A stretch of DNA of 22,310 bases from a virus: the IMG/VR virus record IMGVR_UViG_3300025525_000006, positions 1 to 22,310 of that record; one strand, written 5' to 3'. Positions within the stretch are counted from its first letter, which is position 1. Each line of letters begins with the position of its first letter. Positions 1,600 to 13,237 of this stretch are shown one piece after another. The notes under the pieces were generated by a model that was given only the letters and a program-made list of their open reading frames with translations, was not told the origin of the DNA and did not search any database. A program made the position numbers and the translations under genes.

Positions 1600-1920
1600 A
1601 TGGCTAAAAAATCCCGCATCAAGCAGGACTGGCACAGAGAAGACATCAAGGCGGCGCTGCGCAAGGGCGGCTCCTCCTTCGCAAAACTGGCGCGGGCGCA
1701 TGGCTACCACGTCTCCGCCGTACGCCTCGCCCTGGTGGTGCCCTACCCGAAGATGGAGCGCCTGATCGCCGAGACCCTGGGCGTTACGCCGCCCGACATC
1801 TGGCCGTCGCGCTACACCCCCGGCGCGCTAGCCAACCCGCGCAACTGGCGGCGTCTCAATAACGTCAATTGTAGCCCTTCCTCTCCCGCCGGCAACGTCA
1901 ATCAGCGCAAGGCCGCCTGA
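1600..1920 (+). CDS. ner: Ner-like winged-HTH negative regulator
   Basis: The 106-residue product resembles the Ner/Nlp family of small phage DNA-binding proteins. The pattern DWHREDIKAALRKGG, then SFAKLARAHG and TLGVTPPDIWPSRY, is typical and spans about residues 10-70. In Mu, Ner damps transcription from both the early and repressor promoters. The start at ATG 1600 (MAKKSRIKQDW) fits the family; the frame can be extended upstream to 1552, but that would include the promoter. A C-terminal tail of about 35 residues goes beyond the usual Ner length and looks disordered. The stop is followed directly by a GTG start of the next gene. Confidence 0.85.
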   Translation: MAKKSRIKQDWHREDIKAALRKGGSSFAKLARAHGYHVSAVRLALVVPYPKMERLIAETLGVTPPDIWPSRYTPGALANPRNWRRLNNVNCSPSSPAGNVNQRKAA

Positions 1921-1921
1921 C

Positions 1922-2386
1922 GTGAGCCGCCTCCGCGACCTCCTTACCGGCAGTCTGTTTGCCGCCGAACCCGAGCGCCCCGGCGCGCTCGGCTGCCGCG
2001 TCGAGATCGCGGCAACGATGGCGGACGCCCTCAAGCGCGCCCGCGAGCGCGGTCTCAGCCGCGAGCAGGTCGCCACCCGCATGGCCTACCACCTGGGCGA
2101 GAAGTTCAATCCCGACACCCTGAACGGTTACACGGCGCCCTCGCACACCGAGCGCGCAGAGAGCCCGCGCGACATCAGCCTGATGCGGGCGATGGCCTTC
2201 GACGCCGCCCTCGACGAGGACGCGCTGCTTTCTCTTTATGCCGGCAAGCGCGGCGCCCGCCGTGTCGTCACCGACGAGGAGGCCGCGCTGATCGAACTGG
2301 GGCGCATTCACCAGGAAGAGAAGGACCTCGCCGAGCGCAAGCGAGCGCTGCAGGCGCTGCTGAAGATCAAGGGAGGGCGGCAGTGA
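1922..2386 (+). CDS. Hypothetical early protein, possible HTH
   Basis: A 154-residue protein starting at GTG 1922, one base after the Ner stop, so probably translated by coupling. The region around residues 40-75 (RERGLSREQVATRMAYHLGE) looks like a helix-turn-helix, followed by an acidic helical stretch and a C-terminal basic coiled-coil-like segment (residues 125-150, rich in E, K and R). I do not recognise a named family. Small proteins of this kind follow Ner in several Mu-like phages. A strong terminator follows about 70 bp downstream. Confidence 0.7.
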   Translation: MSRLRDLLTGSLFAAEPERPGALGCRVEIAATMADALKRARERGLSREQVATRMAYHLGEKFNPDTLNGYTAPSHTERAESPRDISLMRAMAFDAALDEDALLSLYAGKRGARRVVTDEEAALIELGRIHQEEKDLAERKRALQALLKIKGGRQ

Positions 2387-2457
2387 TCGATTCTGTTTTC
2401 CGGTGTCTCCTCCCTGCGCCGGCGCCGGCGGTTTCATCCTTTCCCGCCGGCATTTTG

Positions 2458-2490
2458 GCCCCCGCCCGCGGCAACGGGCGGGGGCTTTTT
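2458..2490 (+). terminator. Strong intrinsic terminator inside the early operon
   Basis: GCCCCCGCCCG (2458-2468) pairs perfectly over 11 bp with CGGGCGGGGGC (2475-2485) around the 6-nt loop CGGCAA, followed by TTTTT. It lies between the hypothetical gene at 1922 and the genes for the Gp27-like protein and transposase, all on the plus strand. It should strongly reduce read-through unless it is overridden. Confidence 0.88.
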
Positions 2491-2510
2491 CTTCAGAGGA
2501 GATGGTGCGC

Positions 2511-2879
2511 GTGAGCCGAGTGTCCAACATAGAGCGACTGCCGCAGATCGTGCGGGCGGAGATCGACCGCCGGCTCACCAAAAACGGCTTCGGTGATTAC
2601 GTGGCGCTCGCCGCCGATCTGCGACAACGAGGCTTCAACAAGATCAGCAAGAGCAGCCTGCATCGCTACGGCCTGCAGCTCAAGCGCCGGATACAGATGG
2701 GGCGTGCGCGCGAGGAACTGGAGACGGCGGGCATCTCGACCGAGATCGCGGCGGAACTGACTGGAGAAGCTACCTTGGTGGTGGTGATCGACCGGCGCAA
2801 TGGCCGGGCGCGGCTGGTCTCTTCGCCTGCGCCGGCGCCGGAAGTCATAGCGCACCTGAAAACGATGGTGCGCGCATGA
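2511..2879 (+). CDS. Early Gp27-like (DUF3486-like) DNA-binding protein
   Basis: The 122-residue product resembles the N-terminal part of the phage small terminase Gp27/DUF3486 encoded at 17967. Both open with a short VEALP/IERLP-type segment, then a Y-x-AL motif and an almost identical ISKSSLHRYG / ISKSAIHRYG helix. It lacks the long helical C-terminus of the packaging protein. Its role in the early operon is unknown; DNA binding is likely. I chose GTG 2511 because AGGAG at 2497-2501 lies 9 nt upstream and the resulting N-terminus aligns with the later paralogue; ATG 2502 is the alternative. The stop overlaps the transposase ATG (ATGA). Confidence 0.75.
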   Translation: MSRVSNIERLPQIVRAEIDRRLTKNGFGDYVALAADLRQRGFNKISKSSLHRYGLQLKRRIQMGRAREELETAGISTEIAAELTGEATLVVVIDRRNGRARLVSSPAPAPEVIAHLKTMVRA

Positions 2880-5125
2880 CAAAAACCCACTACTCCTGTG
2901 CCGAGCTGGCGGCGCTCAGGCTGCCGGGGTATCCGGGCACGGAGCGGAGATTCCGCGACCTGGTCGAGCGCGAGGGCTGGGCTTTCGTGGAGATCAAGAG
3001 CCGGGGCAAGGGCGGCATCCGCCGCGACTACGCCCCGCCCCCCGCGGTGGCCAAGCTCATCGCCTCGCGCCAGGCGATTCAGGCCGACGGCGCGGCAGCG
3101 CGAACCGCGCGGGCGATCAAGGCCGCCGTGCATGCCCAGGCGGTGGCCGAAAATAACGCCAGAACGGCCGTCGCCTTCGACGATCTGTGGGTGCAGCTGT
3201 CGCCAGGCGGGCGGGAGAAGTTCGACGCCAAGTTCGAGATCGTGCTGGCCTGGCGCAACTTCTTCGCCGAGCGCGGGCTCAAGCGCAAGGCGAGCTTCGC
3301 CGCCTTCGCCGCCGCCCATAACGCCAAGCACCTGCCGGGCATCACGGAGGCGATGCGCGCGGCCTACCCTAAAATCAGCGCGCGCAGCATCGAGCGCTGG
3401 GTGCTCGACAACGAAAAACGCGGCCTCGTGGTGATGGCCGACGGGCGCCACCGCAAGGGCGGGGGCACATCCACCATCGAGCAGCACCCGGAGCTGGAGA
3501 AGCTCATCCTTGGCGTGCTGGCCGAGAAGCCGCACGTGTCGCACACCCACCTGCAGGACATCATCAACCACGGCCGCATCGACAAGCAGACCGGCGAGGT
3601 CCTCTGGCCCGAAATCACCTACTCGGCGCTCAACCGCTACATCAGCAAGTGGAAGGCGCAGAACGCCCAGGCGCACCTCCTCGCCACCAACCCGGATGCC
3701 TGGAAGAGCAAGTACCTCTCCAGCCTGGGCAAGCTCGACGGCGACATCGTGCGGCTCAACCAGCGCTGGGAGATGGATGGCACGCCGGCCGACTGGATGC
3801 TGCGCGGCGGGCGTTACAACGCCTCGGTGGTCATCGACGTGTGGAGCCGCCGGGCGAAGATCCTGTTCTCGAAGAGTGCGCGCACGGAAACCAACAAGGC
3901 GCTGATGCGCCGCGCCGTGCTCGACTGGGGCGTGCCCGAGCAAGCCAAGACGGACAACGGCTCCGACTACGTCAGTCGCGAGATGCTGCTCTTTTTCGAG
4001 GATCTGGGCATCGACGGGGTGCAGAGCGCCAAATTCTCACCCTGGGAGAAGGCCCACGTCGAGAGCTTCATCAAGACGTACCTGCACTCCATGCTGGAGC
4101 TGCTCGATGCCTTCATCGGGCACAACGTGGCCGAGCGCAAGGCCATCCAGGCGCGGGCGAGCTTCGCCGAGCAGCTTTTCAGCAAAAACGCCGTCGTCGA
4201 AGTTGACATGACGGTGGAGGAGCTGCAGGCGCTCACCGACGCCTGGCTGGAGGGCACCTACCACCGAAACGAGCATTCCACGCTGGGCGTGTCGCCCTTC
4301 GAGCGGGCCGCCTCATGGACCGGCGCGATACGCCGGGTGGGTAGCGAGCGGGCCCTCGACATCCTGCTGTGGAAGCCGGTCAAGCGCGCCCCGGTCATCA
4401 GCGCCAAGGGCATCCGCTACGACAAGGCCTGGTTCATCCACGAGCTGCTGCCTCTTCACGCCGACAAGGACGCCGACATTCGGCTCGATCCGGCCGACCT
4501 TGGCCGCATGGTGGTGCGGGTGGACGGCAAGTTCCTTTGCATCGCCGAGTGCCCAGAGCGCACCGGCATCGATCAGGCGGCAGTGGCCGCGAAGGGGCGG
4601 GCGCTGCAGCGCGAGTGGGCCAATGAGGAGCGGGCCAGGACGCGCGAGCGGCGCAAGGGGCTATCGACCGACGCCATCGTGCGCGGAATCATCCTCGATC
4701 GCGCCCGCGAGGCCGGCAAGGTCGCCATGTTGCCCAAACGCGCCGAGTCGCACGCCACTGCCGCGCTCACCGAGGCCGAGGAAATCGCCGCGCGCCTGGC
4801 CGGCGAGATTCGACCCGCTGCGGAAGATCCGGTGCTCTCCGTGCCGCCCTCGATCCGCCCGGCGCGGCCCGAGCCATCGGCCAAGGTGGGCGTCATCCCA
4901 GAGACGCCGGAGCTGCGCTACCGCTTGTGGCGCGATCTCACCGATCGCTTCCAGCGCGGCGAGGTCATCGCAATCGCCCAGCTAGAGGAGAGCCCGCAGC
5001 TGCGCCGCTGGCTCACCACCTGGCCGCAGTCGGCGGAAGGGCGCTCCCTGCTCAAGCGATATGAAGAGTCCAAAAAGGAAACGGGCAACCCGTCTGGCAA
5101 CGGACTGCCCGCGTTGATTCGCTAA
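2876..5125 (+). CDS. A: MuA-type DDE transposase
   Basis: This 749-residue protein cuts and joins the phage ends during integration and replicative transposition. Residues 1-70 form the Mu enhancer-binding domain (CAELAALRLPGYPG, GWAFVEI). About 100-260 are helical end-binding subdomains. The RNase H-like core carries the catalytic triad D301 (EMDGTPAD), D360 (KTDNGSDY) and E396 (HVESF), a D-D-(35)-E spacing, shorter than in MuA itself. About 450-560 fits the beta-barrel Mu-transpos_C region, and a charged helical tail follows that would contact the partner ATPase. It is somewhat longer than MuA (663). No frameshift or missing catalytic residue is seen, so it is probably functional. The start overlaps the upstream stop. 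Confidence 0.95.
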   Translation: MTKTHYSCAELAALRLPGYPGTERRFRDLVEREGWAFVEIKSRGKGGIRRDYAPPPAVAKLIASRQAIQADGAAARTARAIKAAVHAQAVAENNARTAVAFDDLWVQLSPGGREKFDAKFEIVLAWRNFFAERGLKRKASFAAFAAAHNAKHLPGITEAMRAAYPKISARSIERWVLDNEKRGLVVMADGRHRKGGGTSTIEQHPELEKLILGVLAEKPHVSHTHLQDIINHGRIDKQTGEVLWPEITYSALNRYISKWKAQNAQAHLLATNPDAWKSKYLSSLGKLDGDIVRLNQRWEMDGTPADWMLRGGRYNASVVIDVWSRRAKILFSKSARTETNKALMRRAVLDWGVPEQAKTDNGSDYVSREMLLFFEDLGIDGVQSAKFSPWEKAHVESFIKTYLHSMLELLDAFIGHNVAERKAIQARASFAEQLFSKNAVVEVDMTVEELQALTDAWLEGTYHRNEHSTLGVSPFERAASWTGAIRRVGSERALDILLWKPVKRAPVISAKGIRYDKAWFIHELLPLHADKDADIRLDPADLGRMVVRVDGKFLCIAECPERTGIDQAAVAAKGRALQREWANEERARTRERRKGLSTDAIVRGIILDRAREAGKVAMLPKRAESHATAALTEAEEIAARLAGEIRPAAEDPVLSVPPSIRPARPEPSAKVGVIPETPELRYRLWRDLTDRFQRGEVIAIAQLEESPQLRRWLTTWPQSAEGRSLLKRYEESKKETGNPSGNGLPALIR

Positions 5126-5885: not shown

Positions 5886-6526
5886 TGGCGCACGGCCGTA
5901 AGCCCGCCCACATCGAGTTGTCCGGTGGCAAAGGCCCGCGCCAGCGCGTGTGGGACGCCATCCGACGCCGGCGCGGCGCCGAGTTCGACCTCCTCGACGT
6001 CAACCCGGGCGACGTGCCGCGCGATACGGTGCGCGACTACGTGCTGTCGCTCACCCGCGCCGGCCACCTGGAAGCCGTTGGCGCCTGCGGCGGCCCGCAT
6101 GACCGACGCCGCTACCGGCTCGCCAACGACGCCGGCCTGGAAGCCCCGCGCGTGCGCCGAGACGGCACGCCCGTGACACAGGGGCTCGCCCAGGAGCAGA
6201 TGTGGCGCACGCTGCGCCGCCACACCGGCGACATCAACGCCCGCGAACTGGCCGCGCATGCCGGCACCAGCGCGGCGCCCGTCTCGCCGGTGGCCGCCAC
6301 CGACTACCTGCGCAATCTGCACACGGCAGGCTATCTGGTCGTCACCGCCGAAGGGCGAGGCGCAGGGCGCGGCGGCGTGGCCGCGCGCTACCGGCTGCGC
6401 GCCGAGAGCAACACCGGCGCGCGCGCTCCGATGGTGTGCCGCTCGCGCGCCATCTACGACCCGAACCTCGGCCGCATCGTCTGGCACGAGCCCGTTACAG
6501 AGGAGGACGCCATCTATGGACGGTAA
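5885..6526 (+). CDS. Tandem winged-helix hypothetical protein
   Basis: A 213-residue protein with two similar winged-helix-like halves. The first covers about residues 15-80 (VWDAIRRRRGAEFDLLDV through RRRYRLAND). The second covers about 100-175 (MWRTLRRHTGDINARELA through RYRLRAES). Both end in a wing-like Y-R-L segment. It is probably a DNA-binding regulator or transposition accessory, but no specific function is known to me. The ATG at 5885 overlaps the ATPase stop (TGATG), with GGAGG 5 nt upstream; a GTG at 5882 is the alternative. The end overlaps the next gene by 11 bp. Confidence 0.75.
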   Translation: MAHGRKPAHIELSGGKGPRQRVWDAIRRRRGAEFDLLDVNPGDVPRDTVRDYVLSLTRAGHLEAVGACGGPHDRRRYRLANDAGLEAPRVRRDGTPVTQGLAQEQMWRTLRRHTGDINARELAAHAGTSAAPVSPVAATDYLRNLHTAGYLVVTAEGRGAGRGGVAARYRLRAESNTGARAPMVCRSRAIYDPNLGRIVWHEPVTEEDAIYGR

Positions 6527-6848
6527 CGCCCGCTGGCGCGAGCTGCTCGAAGCGGACATCGTGCGCGCCGGCCGCGCCGGCAAGGCCGAGGTGGCGCGGC
6601 GCCTGGGTGTCTCGCGCCCCTACATCAGCCGCGTCATGAGCGGCAGCCTTGTGCCGGTGCCGAAAAAGTTCATCGACCGCGTGCTGCGGCGCCTGGACCG
6701 CCTGACCTGCCCGGCTGACGGCGTGGAGATCGAGCGCAGCGAATGCGACGCCGCGCTGCGCCCTGCCCCCACCCACAACCCCTTCGCCATGCGGCGCTGG
6801 GGCGCCTGCCAGCAGTGCCCGCATAAACCCGAAAAGGAGTGCCCATGA
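6516..6848 (+). CDS. HTH regulator with cysteine-rich tail
   Basis: A 110-residue protein with a clear helix-turn-helix at about 24-44 (AEVARRLGVSRPYISRVMSG), of the XRE/LacI-like type. Five cysteines follow (65, 77, 98, 101, 109), including CQQC and a final C in a GACQQCPHKPEKEC context, which may bind a metal. Proteins like this recur in early regions of Mu-like phages as putative regulators; the target is unknown. GAGGAGG about 10 nt upstream supports ATG 6516, inside the end of the previous gene. Confidence 0.78.
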   Translation: MDGNARWRELLEADIVRAGRAGKAEVARRLGVSRPYISRVMSGSLVPVPKKFIDRVLRRLDRLTCPADGVEIERSECDAALRPAPTHNPFAMRRWGACQQCPHKPEKECP

Positions 6849-10195: not shown

Positions 10196-10678
10196 ATGAA
10201 ACCCGCCCCCGACCTGCGCAAGCGCGAGCTGGCCGCGATCCACATCGCGCGGCAGCAGCTCGGCATGGACGAGGCCACCTACCGCGACATGCTGTGGGCG
10301 GTGGCGCGCGTGCGCTCGGCGGCGGATCTCGACTGGGCCGGGCGGCGCCGCGTGCTCGACCACCTGGCCGGCTGCGGCGCGCGGATCGGCGGCAAGGCGC
10401 CCGGCGCCCGTCCGGCCCGGCCGAACGAATGGACCTTCATCGACCGCGCCGCCGAGGACTGCCGCCCCATGCTGCGCAAGCTCTGCGTGCTCTGCCGCGA
10501 GCTGGGCATCGAGCGCGGCAAACAGAAGCGCTACGTCGAGGGCATCGCCCGGCAGATGTCCGGCCTCGAATGCGGCGGCGCCGTCGTCAAGCCGCTGGAG
10601 CTGTGCACCTACAGCGAGCTGTGGCGCATCACGGCCGCGCTCAACAAGCACCTGCAGCGGCGGAAGGAACGGGCGTGA
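10196..10678 (+). CDS. gemA: GemA-like regulatory protein (Mu gp16 family)
   Basis: A 160-residue member of the GemA family (DUF1018). The N-terminal block ELAAIHIARQQLGMDEATYRDML and the C-terminal RKLCVLCRELGI, QKRYVEGIARQMSG and ELWRITAALNKHLQRR blocks are characteristic. In Mu, GemA modulates host gene expression and DNA topology; the biochemical activity is not well defined. A Pro/Ala-rich linker lies at about 65-80. Its place just before mor is conserved in Mu-like phages. ATG 10196 follows the presumed true end of the preceding gene by one base. Confidence 0.88.
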   Translation: MKPAPDLRKRELAAIHIARQQLGMDEATYRDMLWAVARVRSAADLDWAGRRRVLDHLAGCGARIGGKAPGARPARPNEWTFIDRAAEDCRPMLRKLCVLCRELGIERGKQKRYVEGIARQMSGLECGGAVVKPLELCTYSELWRITAALNKHLQRRKERA

Positions 10679-11261: not shown

Positions 11262-11271
11262 GGGAGGGGAT

Positions 11272-12036
11272 ATGGGGCTGTTCGGTTTTCTGTCGGGTCT
11301 GCGCGAAGATGGTTTCGAAAAGGCGTTTTCACGGGTGACCAAAGAAACCACCTTAACGGAGGCCGCCAAGTCATTGGTCAGGCCAATATTGCGTGCTGCA
11401 TATGAAGGCGAATCTGCTCACAGCGCCGCGAAGAAGATAACTGGTGTTGTTCCGGAGGAAACGTGGAAATGGCCGGCCTACGATGAGCAGGCTCCATCCA
11501 TCAGGCGGGCCGAGATGGCGATGCGCAGTGAAGTTATTGCCAAGGCCAAACTCGATGAACTGCTCGACATGGTTCCTCGCAGTGTCCTCAAGACGATTTA
11601 TCGCGAACTGTGCGTAGGAAAGTTGCCCGCGCGACACGCAGAATTCGTGTCGGCAATTTTAGCGGCCCTCACGAAAGGAAACAGGAAAGACATTACGGAT
11701 CGTCTGCGTACTGCCGCACTCGACCAAATGAACAATGACTTCACCGCGTCACCCAAAGCTGGGCCAGCCGTCGGGAGCCAAACCGAAGCCTTTGTGAATC
11801 GGGTGCTGCGGATGGCATTCGGTCTCTCTCAGTGGTCGCGAATCATCGAAAACAAACACGCCAATTCGAGCCTGATGCTCGACGTCCCGGAGCCTTGGCG
11901 TGCGAAACCCGAGTGCCTGTCATTGAACGGGAAACCAAGAAGCATCGATAACGAGTGCTGGGAAAAGCATTTGCCGCCATGCGAGCGTGTTGATTGCCTT
12001 TGTGGCCTCATTCCAGTCACGAAACGAAGAAATTGA
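11272..12036 (+). CDS. AT-richer orphan gene, candidate moron
   Basis: A 254-residue protein that I do not recognise. The gene is visibly poorer in GC and uses different codons from its neighbours. It sits alone between mor and the proposed antisense RNA locus, a typical place for recently acquired cargo. The body is mainly helical (30-150). The C-terminus has five cysteines (215, 229, 237, 242, 244) in PECLSLNGK and LPPCERVDCLCG, which may form a metal-binding knuckle and loosely recall the C-rich end of MuF-type proteins. No signal peptide is evident. GGGAGGGG precedes ATG 11272. The stop overlaps the -35 box of the next promoter. A role in exclusion or host defence is conjecture. Confidence 0.75.
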   Translation: MGLFGFLSGLREDGFEKAFSRVTKETTLTEAAKSLVRPILRAAYEGESAHSAAKKITGVVPEETWKWPAYDEQAPSIRRAEMAMRSEVIAKAKLDELLDMVPRSVLKTIYRELCVGKLPARHAEFVSAILAALTKGNRKDITDRLRTAALDQMNNDFTASPKAGPAVGSQTEAFVNRVLRMAFGLSQWSRIIENKHANSSLMLDVPEPWRAKPECLSLNGKPRSIDNECWEKHLPPCERVDCLCGLIPVTKRRN

Positions 12037-12062
12037 CTTCAGTGCCAAATGGGGCGTAAAGT
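12033..12062 (+). promoter_or_regulatory. Putative promoter for the C4-like RNA
   Basis: TTGACT (12033-12038) and TAAAGT (12057-12062) are 18 bp apart. The -35 box overlaps the stop codon of the preceding gene. The predicted start, about 12069, coincides with the first hairpin of the structured RNA. Matches are 5/6 and 4/6. Confidence 0.55.
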
Positions 12063-12068
12063 CCGCGC

Positions 12069-12155
12069 GTCGCCGAGAAAGAGGCGACCGGGGGTGACAG
12101 CCCGAATCGGAAAGGCGGCGAAGAGCCGCACAGCGTTTGCCATGCGGCTTTTTTA
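12069..12155 (+). ncRNA. C4-like antisense RNA upstream of antirepressor gene
   Basis: About 87 nt of compact structure between a promoter-like sequence and an intrinsic terminator. Hairpin 1 is TCGCC (12070-12074) with GGCGA (12083-12087). Hairpin 2 is CGGG (12089-12092) with CCCG (12101-12104), showing GGTGACAG in its loop. Hairpin 3 is GCGGC (12115-12119) with GCCGC (12125-12129), which competes with the terminator stem. Boxes GGCGACCG (12083-12090) and GGGGTGACAG (12091-12100) are complementary to 12242-12249 and 12226-12236 in the antirepressor leader, in antiparallel order. This is how C4 RNAs of phages P1 and P7 block ant translation. Membership of the Rfam C4 family is my inference and was not tested. 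Confidence 0.55.
12124..12154 (+). terminator. Intrinsic terminator/attenuator ending the C4-like RNA
   Basis: AGCCGCA (12124-12130) pairs with TGCGGCT (12143-12149), followed by T's to 12154. The 5' arm can pair instead with GCGGC at 12115-12119, giving mutually exclusive structures. It would stop most transcripts before the Bro-N gene. Confidence 0.8.
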
Positions 12156-12225
12156 TCGCCAGGCGTGTCCGAGTACGGGCGGCCGGGCGGAGGGAGCCGC
12201 AAGGCTCGCCGGTGCCTTTCCCGGT

Positions 12226-12249
12226 CTGTCAACCTCCGTTTCGGTCGCC
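12226..12249 (+). promoter_or_regulatory. Proposed target of the C4-like RNA in the antirepressor leader
   Basis: CTGTCA, a bulged A and CCTC (12226-12236), then CGGTCGCC (12242-12249), pair with the two boxes of the upstream RNA, about 18 base pairs in two blocks. The site lies roughly 54-77 nt before the Bro-N ATG. Between site and start are small hairpins (CCCG/CGGG and CGGTT/AACCG) and the ribosome site AAAGGA. No convincing leader-peptide start was found after the target. Confidence 0.5.
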
Positions 12250-12302
12250 CACCCGTTTGACAGCGGGCAGGCGGTTCCAAACCGTCACGAAAGGACCACA
12301 CC

Positions 12303-12992
12303 ATGAATCAACTCATCCCCGCCGAATTCCACGGCACCCCCGTTCGCATCATTGATCGAGAAGGCCAGAAATGGCTCGCCGCCGAGGAGATCGGGCGCTG
12401 TCTCGGCTACGACGCGGCAAATGCCCGCAAGGGCGTGCTCAAGCTGTACGAGCGCCACGGCGACGAGTTCACCGAGGCAGATACATTCGTCGTCAAATTG
12501 ACGGCGAATTCACGAGGCAATCCCAACACCCGCATCTTCTCCGACACCGGCTGCATCAAGCTCGGCTTTTTCGCCTCGACGCCCCGGGCCAAGGAGTTCC
12601 GCGCCTGGGCTTCCCGCGTGCTGGCGGGCGGGCAGGCGCAGGGCTACCCCGTCGCCGCCCTGCGCCAGGACCTGGCCCTGGCCCGCGAGCTGGGCGGCCT
12701 GCGCGACCAGGTGCGGGCGCAGAACGAGATGATCCTCGCCCTCTACGGCCGCGTGGATACCGCCCAGCGCGGCCACATCCGGGCGGTGACCCGGCTGCTC
12801 GGCCTGGAGAAGCGCCAGGCGCGGCGCGAGCGCATCGAGACGGCCCTCCGCATGGAGGCGGCCGGCATCCCGCGCGAGGAGATCGTGCGCGCCACCGGCA
12901 TGAGCTTCGGCCTGCTGCGGGCGCACGTCTTTCGCGCCCGCCGCGACGGCCGGCTGCCGGGGCATGGCGGCCGGGAAGGGGGTGCGCAATGA
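12303..12992 (+). CDS. Bro-N domain antirepressor-like protein
   Basis: A 229-residue protein with an N-terminal Bro-N domain (residues about 5-105: FHGTPVRIIDREGQKWLAAE, IGRCLGYDAANARKGV, FSDTGCIKLGFFAS, AKEFRAWASRVLAG), as in phage antirepressors. The middle (125-180) is coiled-coil-like. The C-terminus has a resolvase-type HTH (RMEAAGIPREEIVRATGMSF). Bro-N/Ant proteins counter phage repressors and help induction or entry into the lytic cycle. AAAGGA lies about 8 nt before ATG 12303. Expression is probably limited by the upstream terminator and antisense RNA. A role other than antirepression, such as a general DNA-binding regulator, is possible. Confidence 0.82.
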   Translation: MNQLIPAEFHGTPVRIIDREGQKWLAAEEIGRCLGYDAANARKGVLKLYERHGDEFTEADTFVVKLTANSRGNPNTRIFSDTGCIKLGFFASTPRAKEFRAWASRVLAGGQAQGYPVAALRQDLALARELGGLRDQVRAQNEMILALYGRVDTAQRGHIRAVTRLLGLEKRQARRERIETALRMEAAGIPREEIVRATGMSFGLLRAHVFRARRDGRLPGHGGREGGAQ

Positions 12993-13237
12993 CCCGGTAC
13001 CTTGACATCAACGCCGCCGAGCTGGCGACCTATGCGGCGCAGATGCGCTATATTGCGCTGGCCGCACGCTGCATGGAGGCCGGCCCGCCGGCCGACAAGC
13101 TGGAGCGCGAGAACTGCGTGCTCTACTTGCTGGAGGTGATCGAGGACATCGCCGCCCGCGCCGAGGGCGCGGCGGAGAGCCTGCGGGATGCGCTGGCGGC
13201 CGCCAGCGCGGCGCCTGACGTTAGTAAAACCCTTTAA
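12989..13237 (+). CDS. Hypothetical 82-residue protein
   Basis: A small, mostly helical, acidic protein (residues 10-75, e.g. ELATYAAQMRYIALAARC and YLLEVIEDIAARAEGA), with no membrane segment. The ATG overlaps the Bro-N stop (ATGA), so the two are probably co-translated. It may act with the Bro-N protein (inference). The stop lies in a short palindrome, CCCTTTAAGGG. Confidence 0.65.
   Translation: MTRYLDINAAELATYAAQMRYIALAARCMEAGPPADKLERENCVLYLLEVIEDIAARAEGAAESLRDALAAASAAPDVSKTL

Follow-up and report, generated by a model that had tools for sequence, protein, structure and literature searches.

The C4 RNA of bacteriophages P1 and P7 is said, on the work of Citron and Schuster (1990, 1992) and Hartmann et al., to repress ant at its ribosome site and to be cut by RNase P. 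The same two properties, repression of ant by ribosome-site pairing and RNase P cleavage, are summarised for P1/P7 C4 in PMC5320573. The CI RNA of P4 terminates transcription via seqA and seqC (PMC10111431; discussion of PMC4825925). In Gifsy-1, IsrK supplied in trans raises anrP translation >100-fold and transcription 8-fold (Hershko-Shalev et al. 2016, PMC4825925); the authors liken IsrK to P4 seqA, and P1 C4 is absent from the passages of that paper concerned. The Rfam C4 and isrK models have already been reported to detect relatives of P4 CI and seqA (PMC10111431), and the overlap between isrK and c4-a1b1 may likewise have been mentioned earlier in the literature. When the Rfam models are applied, P1 scores 68.8 bits with C4, 51.0 with c4-a1b1 and 35.1 with isrK; the P4 CI region scores 74.9 bits with C4, and the P4 leader 60.8 with isrK; and Gifsy-1 scores 79.3 bits with isrK, 69.0 with C4 (over orf45/STnc1160) and 48.1 with c4-a1b1.

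The locus of interest lies in an IMG/VR record of 22,310 bases (the window, meaning the whole stretch analysed), which is a fragment of a Mu-like phage. An earlier note on this DNA had proposed a C4-type antisense switch, with the logic of the P1 immI locus, upstream of a Bro-N antirepressor gene. The C4 model and the compensatory changes described below both bear this out: the observation is real and was correctly suspected, with the regulator and target RNAs swapped, and the locus adds one more member to the C4/CI class.

The C4 RNA, its leader and the antirepressor gene

The gap before the Bro-N gene spans 12037–12302 (266 bp, the length reported earlier), and is bordered on its other side by a gene at 11272–12036. 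All of the gap features described here are on the + strand. A C4 antisense RNA (RF01695) occupies positions 12171–12256: the Rfam covariance model, which the earlier note had recommended running on the locus, returns 56.4 bits (E 1e-8), above the gathering score of 45. Our own model, R1, gives 61.4 bits, with the window C4 belonging to the R1 training set. Both the minimum free energy fold and the centroid fold are the C4 fold, in which a long P1 stem encloses P2 and P3 (z score of the C4 segment, -3.3). According to this fold and the Rfam alignment, the b' sequence GCCTTTC (12214–12220) sits in the loop of hairpin P3, and the a' sequence CTGTCAA (12226–12232) is unpaired between P3 and P1. 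Alignment with the annotated 77-nt C4 of P1 predicts a mature form of 77 nt at 12177–12253; the mature-end motif is GGG in the window and GGT in P1.

Downstream of C4 lies ant (12303–12992, ATG at 12303), encoding a 229 aa antirepressor. Its product matches Pfam Bro-N (PF02498; 39.6 bits against a cut-off of 25.6, E 8.5e-10) and the PHROGs anti-repressor Ant (E 3.8e-21), in agreement with the earlier identification. Two boxes that had previously been missed precede the gene. The first, a2 (TTGACAG, 12257–12263), is complementary to a' over 7 nt and lies within a small hairpin (12252–12267). The second, b2 (GAAAGGA, 12289–12295), is the Shine-Dalgarno sequence of ant and is complementary to b' over 6 nt (GAAAGG, 12289–12294). 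The a2/b2 target is thus located at the ant ribosome site. A search of the window for further C4 target sites returned none beyond the two of this locus. By analogy with the antirepressors of Salmonella prophages, which Lemire et al. 2011 reportedly found to act in trans, Ant may act on the repressors of other phages. We also observed a forward reading frame (12049–12306) that ends at the TGA (12304–12306) within the ATGA of the ant start, like the orf45/anrP overlap in Gifsy-1; the frame is without an evident start codon and ribosome site 3' of the promoter.

That promoter is a sigma-70-type sequence at 12033–12062 (TTGACT-18-TAAAGT; -35 at 12033–12038, -10 at 12057–12062), with a predicted start near 12069. 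The promoter-like pair at 12033 and 12057 had been noticed before, and is indeed the only one in 11900–12400 (0.1 expected in shuffled sequence). Its position is that of the annotated P1c4 promoter of P1, and among 87 loci a -35/-10 signal recurs ahead of a1 with a constant separation.

From the predicted start runs a terminated leader RNA of the IsrK / seqA / c4-a1b1 type (12069–12154; fold z score, -3.0), comprising (i) hairpin 1 (12069–12088), (ii) hairpin 2 (12089–12104), whose loop carries the a1 box TGACAG (12095–12100), (iii) the b1 box GAAAGGC (12110–12116), and (iv) an intrinsic terminator (12124–12154; stem AGCCGCA/TGCGGCT at 12124–12149, T6 at 12149–12154). The hairpins and terminator agree with those described in the earlier note; a simple terminator scan finds no match at 12124–12154 because of the 12-nt loop. 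The a1 core pairs with 12226–12231 of a' over 6 nt rather than 7, there being one mismatch beside the core, and b1 is complementary to b' (12214–12220) over 7 nt. The leader matches Rfam isrK (RF01394) over the full model length (1–77) with 44.0 bits (E 3.6e-8), below the cut-off of 50, and positions 12056–12108 match c4-a1b1 (RF03163), also over the full length, with 32.7 bits (E 2e-6), below the cut-off of 46.7. Judged from its sequence, the leader works like isrK; being sub-threshold, it is not filed as a member of the family.

A possible antiterminator, GCGGC-GAAGA-GCCGC (12114–12128), would pair a GCGGC adjacent to b1 (12115–12119) with the 5' arm of the terminator (12124–12128). Of 87 loci, 72 have a terminator-like structure between a1 and C4 (shuffled sequence, 28%). 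Where the terminator is clear, 30% of loci have an antiterminator of at least 5 nt; the figure is 8% after re-pairing and 18% in a reversed-sequence control. Sequence comparison is thus only suggestive of an antiterminator that competes with the 5' arm. A universal antiterminator was rejected: the element is enriched, yet the reversed-sequence control is part-positive, and Gifsy-1 is without one.

Target boxes across C4 loci

C4 loci were gathered mainly with the Rfam C4 model, which includes none of the target boxes. The sources were genomes of Burkholderiales and Gammaproteobacteria, a dozen genomes found via a C4 core pattern, P1, Gifsy-1 and the window. The resulting co-variation set contains 88 loci with 35 distinct a' 6-mers. 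For each locus, a' was compared with the a1 region (80 nt upstream) and the a2 region (22 nt downstream), and foreign controls used the a' of a locus with another word.

All four boxes co-vary with their partners. Complementarity of at least 6 nt links a' to its own a1 in 98% of loci (foreign a', 13%) and to its own a2 in 89% (foreign, 6%). For b', the mean longest match is 7.0 nt with its own b1 and 7.5 nt with its own b2, compared with 4.2 and 4.3 nt, respectively, for foreign pairings. None of 2000 permutations did as well for the sum of any of the four (a1, a2, b1 and b2). Spacing is also constant across loci, with 8 nt between a1 and b1 and 22 nt between a2 and b2. In genomes with multiple copies, a matching a1 is retained at 91 of 98 C4s and a matching a2 at 74 of 98; the leader target therefore matters no less than the one at the ribosome site. 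The co-variation data make the role of the a1/b1 target—long "putative"—testable.

Two further ideas were rejected. Firstly, a hairpin between a2 and b2 was considered as a conserved spacer, but it occurs in 44 of 77 loci, against 36.7 expected in shuffles; only the spacing is constant. Secondly, immunity repulsion, in which co-resident C4s avoid the same a' word, is contradicted by the occurrence of identical words in 9.1% of comparisons within genomes versus 2.5% between genomes (all 5000 permutations fell below the observed number of words shared within genomes).

Some genomes contain C4s in arrays. One contig (L173, G668:C9; positions 1700–3092) carries four tandem C4 modules, ~355–600 nt apart and each with its own promoter, whose a' words (AGTTCGA, AAGGTCA, ACTGCTA and AATGCGA) are each matched by their own a1 and a2; the reading frames between the units are short or truncated, and a large phage-satellite-like gene follows. 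The genome of Chromobacterium aquaticum DSM 19852 (G008; L035, L174, L175) contains 37 C4 matches, some in close tandem, a case similar to the many C4-like RNAs of Acinetobacter baumannii (PMC5320573).

The same loci bear on two ways of assigning roles to the RNAs in the window. In the earlier note, an RNA of about 85 nt starting near 12069 was taken to be the C4 RNA; that is, the upstream RNA (12069–12154) would be the antisense regulator, and 12226–12249 its target in the ant leader. The two perfect complementary boxes on which this was built do exist, and IsrK, a relative of the upstream RNA, acts in trans in Gifsy-1 (PMC4825925, in the passages concerned). Of the two boxes, the first is the genuine a1:a' pair, and the check for co-variation that had been suggested is positive for it. 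The second is a perfect 8-nt complement (12083–12090 with 12242–12249), but it does not co-vary: over 87 loci, the pairing energy is -10.55 kcal/mol for own and -10.60 kcal/mol for re-paired segments, 578 of 1000 permutations being as good. This rules it out as part of the switch; its downstream segment (12242–12249) lies in the closed P1 stem of C4. The conserved second pair is instead b1:b' (12110–12116 with 12214–12220), which had gone unnoticed. Furthermore, it is 12171–12256—within what had been called the leader—that exceeds the C4 gathering score and folds as C4, and the upstream RNA would leave the ribosome-binding site uncovered, while a' and b' match a2 and the Shine-Dalgarno sequence. 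We therefore consider it very unlikely that the upstream RNA is the regulator; it is the target leader.

Proposed control of ant

We propose that the gap is a C4-type antisense immunity module, in which C4 prevents translation of ant through a2/b2 and favours termination through a1/b1, and we put the probability of this reading at roughly 0.87. Transcription from the promoter at 12033–12062 would mostly end at the leader terminator (12154), releasing an IsrK/seqA-like RNA of ~86 nt, and read-through transcripts would carry the C4 RNA (12171–12256) together with the ant mRNA. C4 would be cut out as an RNA of ~77 nt, RNase P being the probable nuclease, as it is in P1/P7; its fold leaves a' single-stranded and exposes b' in the loop of a hairpin. 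In trans it would (i) pair with a2/b2, covering the ribosome-binding site of ant so that Ant is not made, and (ii) pair with a1/b1 in nascent leaders, favouring termination and hence silencing the operon that encodes it, in the manner of CI at P4 seqA. The released leader would be a target of C4 too, and may titrate it (as IsrK in Gifsy-1), setting a threshold for induction.

Several points count against this model. In the window, the leader is sub-threshold for both isrK and c4-a1b1, a1:a' spans only 6 nt, and the mature-end motif departs from that of P1; among the loci, the antiterminator is not universal. For IsrK itself, the authors of PMC4825925 invoke a single folding switch together with a translated orf45, and report that co-expression of orf45/STnc1160 failed to relieve the growth arrest caused by IsrK.

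The Gifsy-1 experiments can also be read in the light of the C4 boxes. Aligning Gifsy-1 (NC_010392.1, L123, 34119–34316) with the window (12069–12263) places, in IsrK numbering, a1 at 26–32, b1 at 42–47, a' at 158–164, a2 at 192–198 and b2 at 222–227, with the bases agreeing at the mutated positions checked. The published compensatory mutants of isrK-orf45, G28A/C162U and G31A/C159U, are thus a1:a' base pairs. As given in the part of PMC4825925 that reports them, the double mutants yield 224 and 327 units, respectively, versus 4 for the wild type, and the fold considered there covers nt 1–180 only. The C4 reading, applied to the published table, would predict such partial restoration, because a2 lies outside the folded 1–180 nt and stays mismatched to the mutant a'. 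This offers a new reading of the IsrK mutants: partial restoration is expected if a2 was left mismatched.

A rival scheme dispenses with termination control: a2/b2 would be the only site at which C4 represses ant, and the role of the short leader RNA would be confined to titrating C4. The trans effects of IsrK on anrP quoted above fit such a sponge, as does the lack of an antiterminator at some loci. Nevertheless, more C4s retain a1 than retain a2, P4 CI and seqA do control termination, and the a1 mutations G28A and G31A raise anrP translation in cis, an effect not foreseen by a purely trans-acting sponge (PMC4825925, in the passages on these mutants). We regard this scheme as doubtful, though it retains appreciable weight.

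Alternatively, the whole leader could act in cis as a single long folding switch of the kind put forward for isrK-orf45, and C4 would never exist as a free RNA. For its part, a1 is able to pair with a' within one molecule, and native gels described in PMC4825925 show two conformers of the Gifsy-1 RNA. This account is difficult to reconcile with the processed, free C4 RNA of P1 and P7, with the stable C4 RNAs of Acinetobacter (PMC5320573), and with the detection of STnc1160 as an RNA in Salmonella (PMC4825925, in the passage concerned). Moreover, a2 and b2 co-vary too, and a folding switch would leave them unused. We judge it improbable.

The mor-to-endolysin slot and related modules

The window encodes a Mu-type transposase A, a MuB-like ATPase, a Ner-type regulator and Mor (phrog_310, phrog_296 and HTH_35; Mor E 7.7e-33; Pfam and PHROGs), in line with a Mu-like phage. 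The phage's own repressor is encoded at 784–1425 on the minus strand. The C4 module, the gene at 11272–12036, ant and a small ORF (12989–13237) make up a segment on the + strand (11265–13218) between mor, which ends at 11264, and the endolysin gene. Four close Mu-like relatives (L132, L133, L134 and L126/L135, the last being one contig) match the window with 84–89% DNA identity on both flanks and nowhere inside the segment, the match resuming at 13215–13219 at the endolysin gene. In place of the 1.95 kb of the window that includes the C4-ant cassette, these relatives have 0.6–0.8 kb of other sequence, and searches of the four returned no C4 match. Since they match both flanks but not the segment, the C4-ant cassette is an accessory insertion; the earlier suggestion that the phage has two independent immunity layers is not supported as stated. 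A nucleotide search with the gap against 50,697 phage records returned no match.

This accessory status, together with the a1 mismatch beside the 6-nt core, could indicate a decayed remnant that is functionless in this phage. Against this, all parts are present, both targets match, and the ant frame is uninterrupted and preceded by a good ribosome site; we find such decay extremely unlikely, and retain the module reading.

The combination had also been called unusual beside a Mu-type switch. This finds no support as worded: in Mu-like L007/L010 (IMG/VR), the same mor-to-endolysin slot holds a C4 followed by a small ORF and the gene for an ORF6N antirepressor, and Mu-like L002 carries, in the mor-lysis slot, an RNA of the sRNA-Xcc1 type together with a Bro-N antirepressor that shares 53% identity with that of the window. 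The window is a further case of a Mu-like phage equipped with a complete C4 switch, and C4-type cassettes recur in the interval from mor to the lysis genes, a position comparable to the one that isrK-anrP occupies in Gifsy-1, with antQ on one side and the lysis genes on the other.

Other structured RNAs were seen in this material. A Mu-like contig (L012) contains two type II hammerhead ribozymes (1264–1328 and 6503–6567; 76 bits), one of which ends 2 nt before a region encoding a homologue of the window gene at 10196–10678. Positions 2398–2493 of the window match Rfam anti-hemB (Burkholderia RNA 7) with 49.6 bits, barely above the cut-off of 49.5, and overlap a Mu Gp27-like reading frame (2403–2879) at its start.

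In L002, the RNA that precedes ant escapes the C4 model and scores 49.1 bits with sRNA-Xcc1 (RF02221), below the cut-off of 53. Nonetheless, it carries a', b', a1/b1 and a2/b2. sRNA-Xcc1 is an orphan sRNA linked to virulence regulators of Xanthomonas. PMC12444791 places it ahead of symE in integron cassettes of Xanthomonas and gives no mechanism, and we found no literature linking it with C4. Across 29 sRNA-Xcc1 loci (drawn from L142–L171 and L002), a' matches its own upstream region over a mean of 8.0 nt (5.8 re-paired) and its own downstream region over 6.6 nt (5.2 re-paired); the figures for b' are 6.1 nt upstream and 5.8 nt downstream (5.3 and 4.8 re-paired). None of 2000 permutations was as good, and a control segment, P2, shows no signal. 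The gene that follows is a SymE_toxin gene at the four loci inspected for it (L142, L144, L167 and L168) and a KilA-N gene at L159. A search for the L142 region in plasmids returned no match.

We lean towards the view that C4, P4 CI, STnc1160 and sRNA-Xcc1 form one class of self-addressed antisense modules, sharing a terminated leader, an antisense RNA with words a' and b', and a duplicate of the target located at the following ribosome site. The primary target would be the leader (through attenuation or titration); the a' and b' words would drift freely yet stay matched; and the module would be passed among antirepressor, KilA-N and SymE toxin genes, in some cases as tandem arrays whose units each have a word of their own. 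The four-box anatomy suggests a function for the orphan RNA: if the view is correct, sRNA-Xcc1 is a cis-encoded repressor of the adjacent symE. It resembles the window module in having four co-varying boxes in the same order, and differs in its consensus sequence and in not being recognised by the C4 model.

Among the described systems, the immI locus of P1/P7 shares with the window its promoter, a1/b1, C4, a2/b2 over the ribosome site and an antirepressor gene, all found by the same Rfam models, and the order of parts agrees with the P1 record (AF234172), which annotates P1c4, a1, b1, c4, a2, b2, icd and ant. P1 differs in possessing icd, whereas the window has no icd frame between C4 and ant; in addition, P1 Ant1 has a KilAC (ANT) domain and the window antirepressor Bro-N, and the host phage of the window module is a Mu-like, transposing one. 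The immunity region of P4 has its parts in the same order, as does Gifsy-1; its CI region matches C4 and its leader, which has an intrinsic terminator, matches isrK. The P4 RNA, however, controls termination upstream of replication genes, while in the window an antirepressor gene lies downstream, with a2/b2 at its ribosome site. The isrK-orf45-anrP locus of Gifsy-1 has the same anatomy and, as in the window, is found after a late regulator and before the lysis genes; there, AnrP has an ORF6N domain rather than Bro-N, and orf45 starts at the 5' end of C4, where the window has no such start codon. Finally, Mu-like L007/L010 hold their C4 module in the same mor-to-endolysin slot, but pair it with an ORF6N antirepressor and an icd-like small ORF, in contrast to the Bro-N antirepressor of the window.
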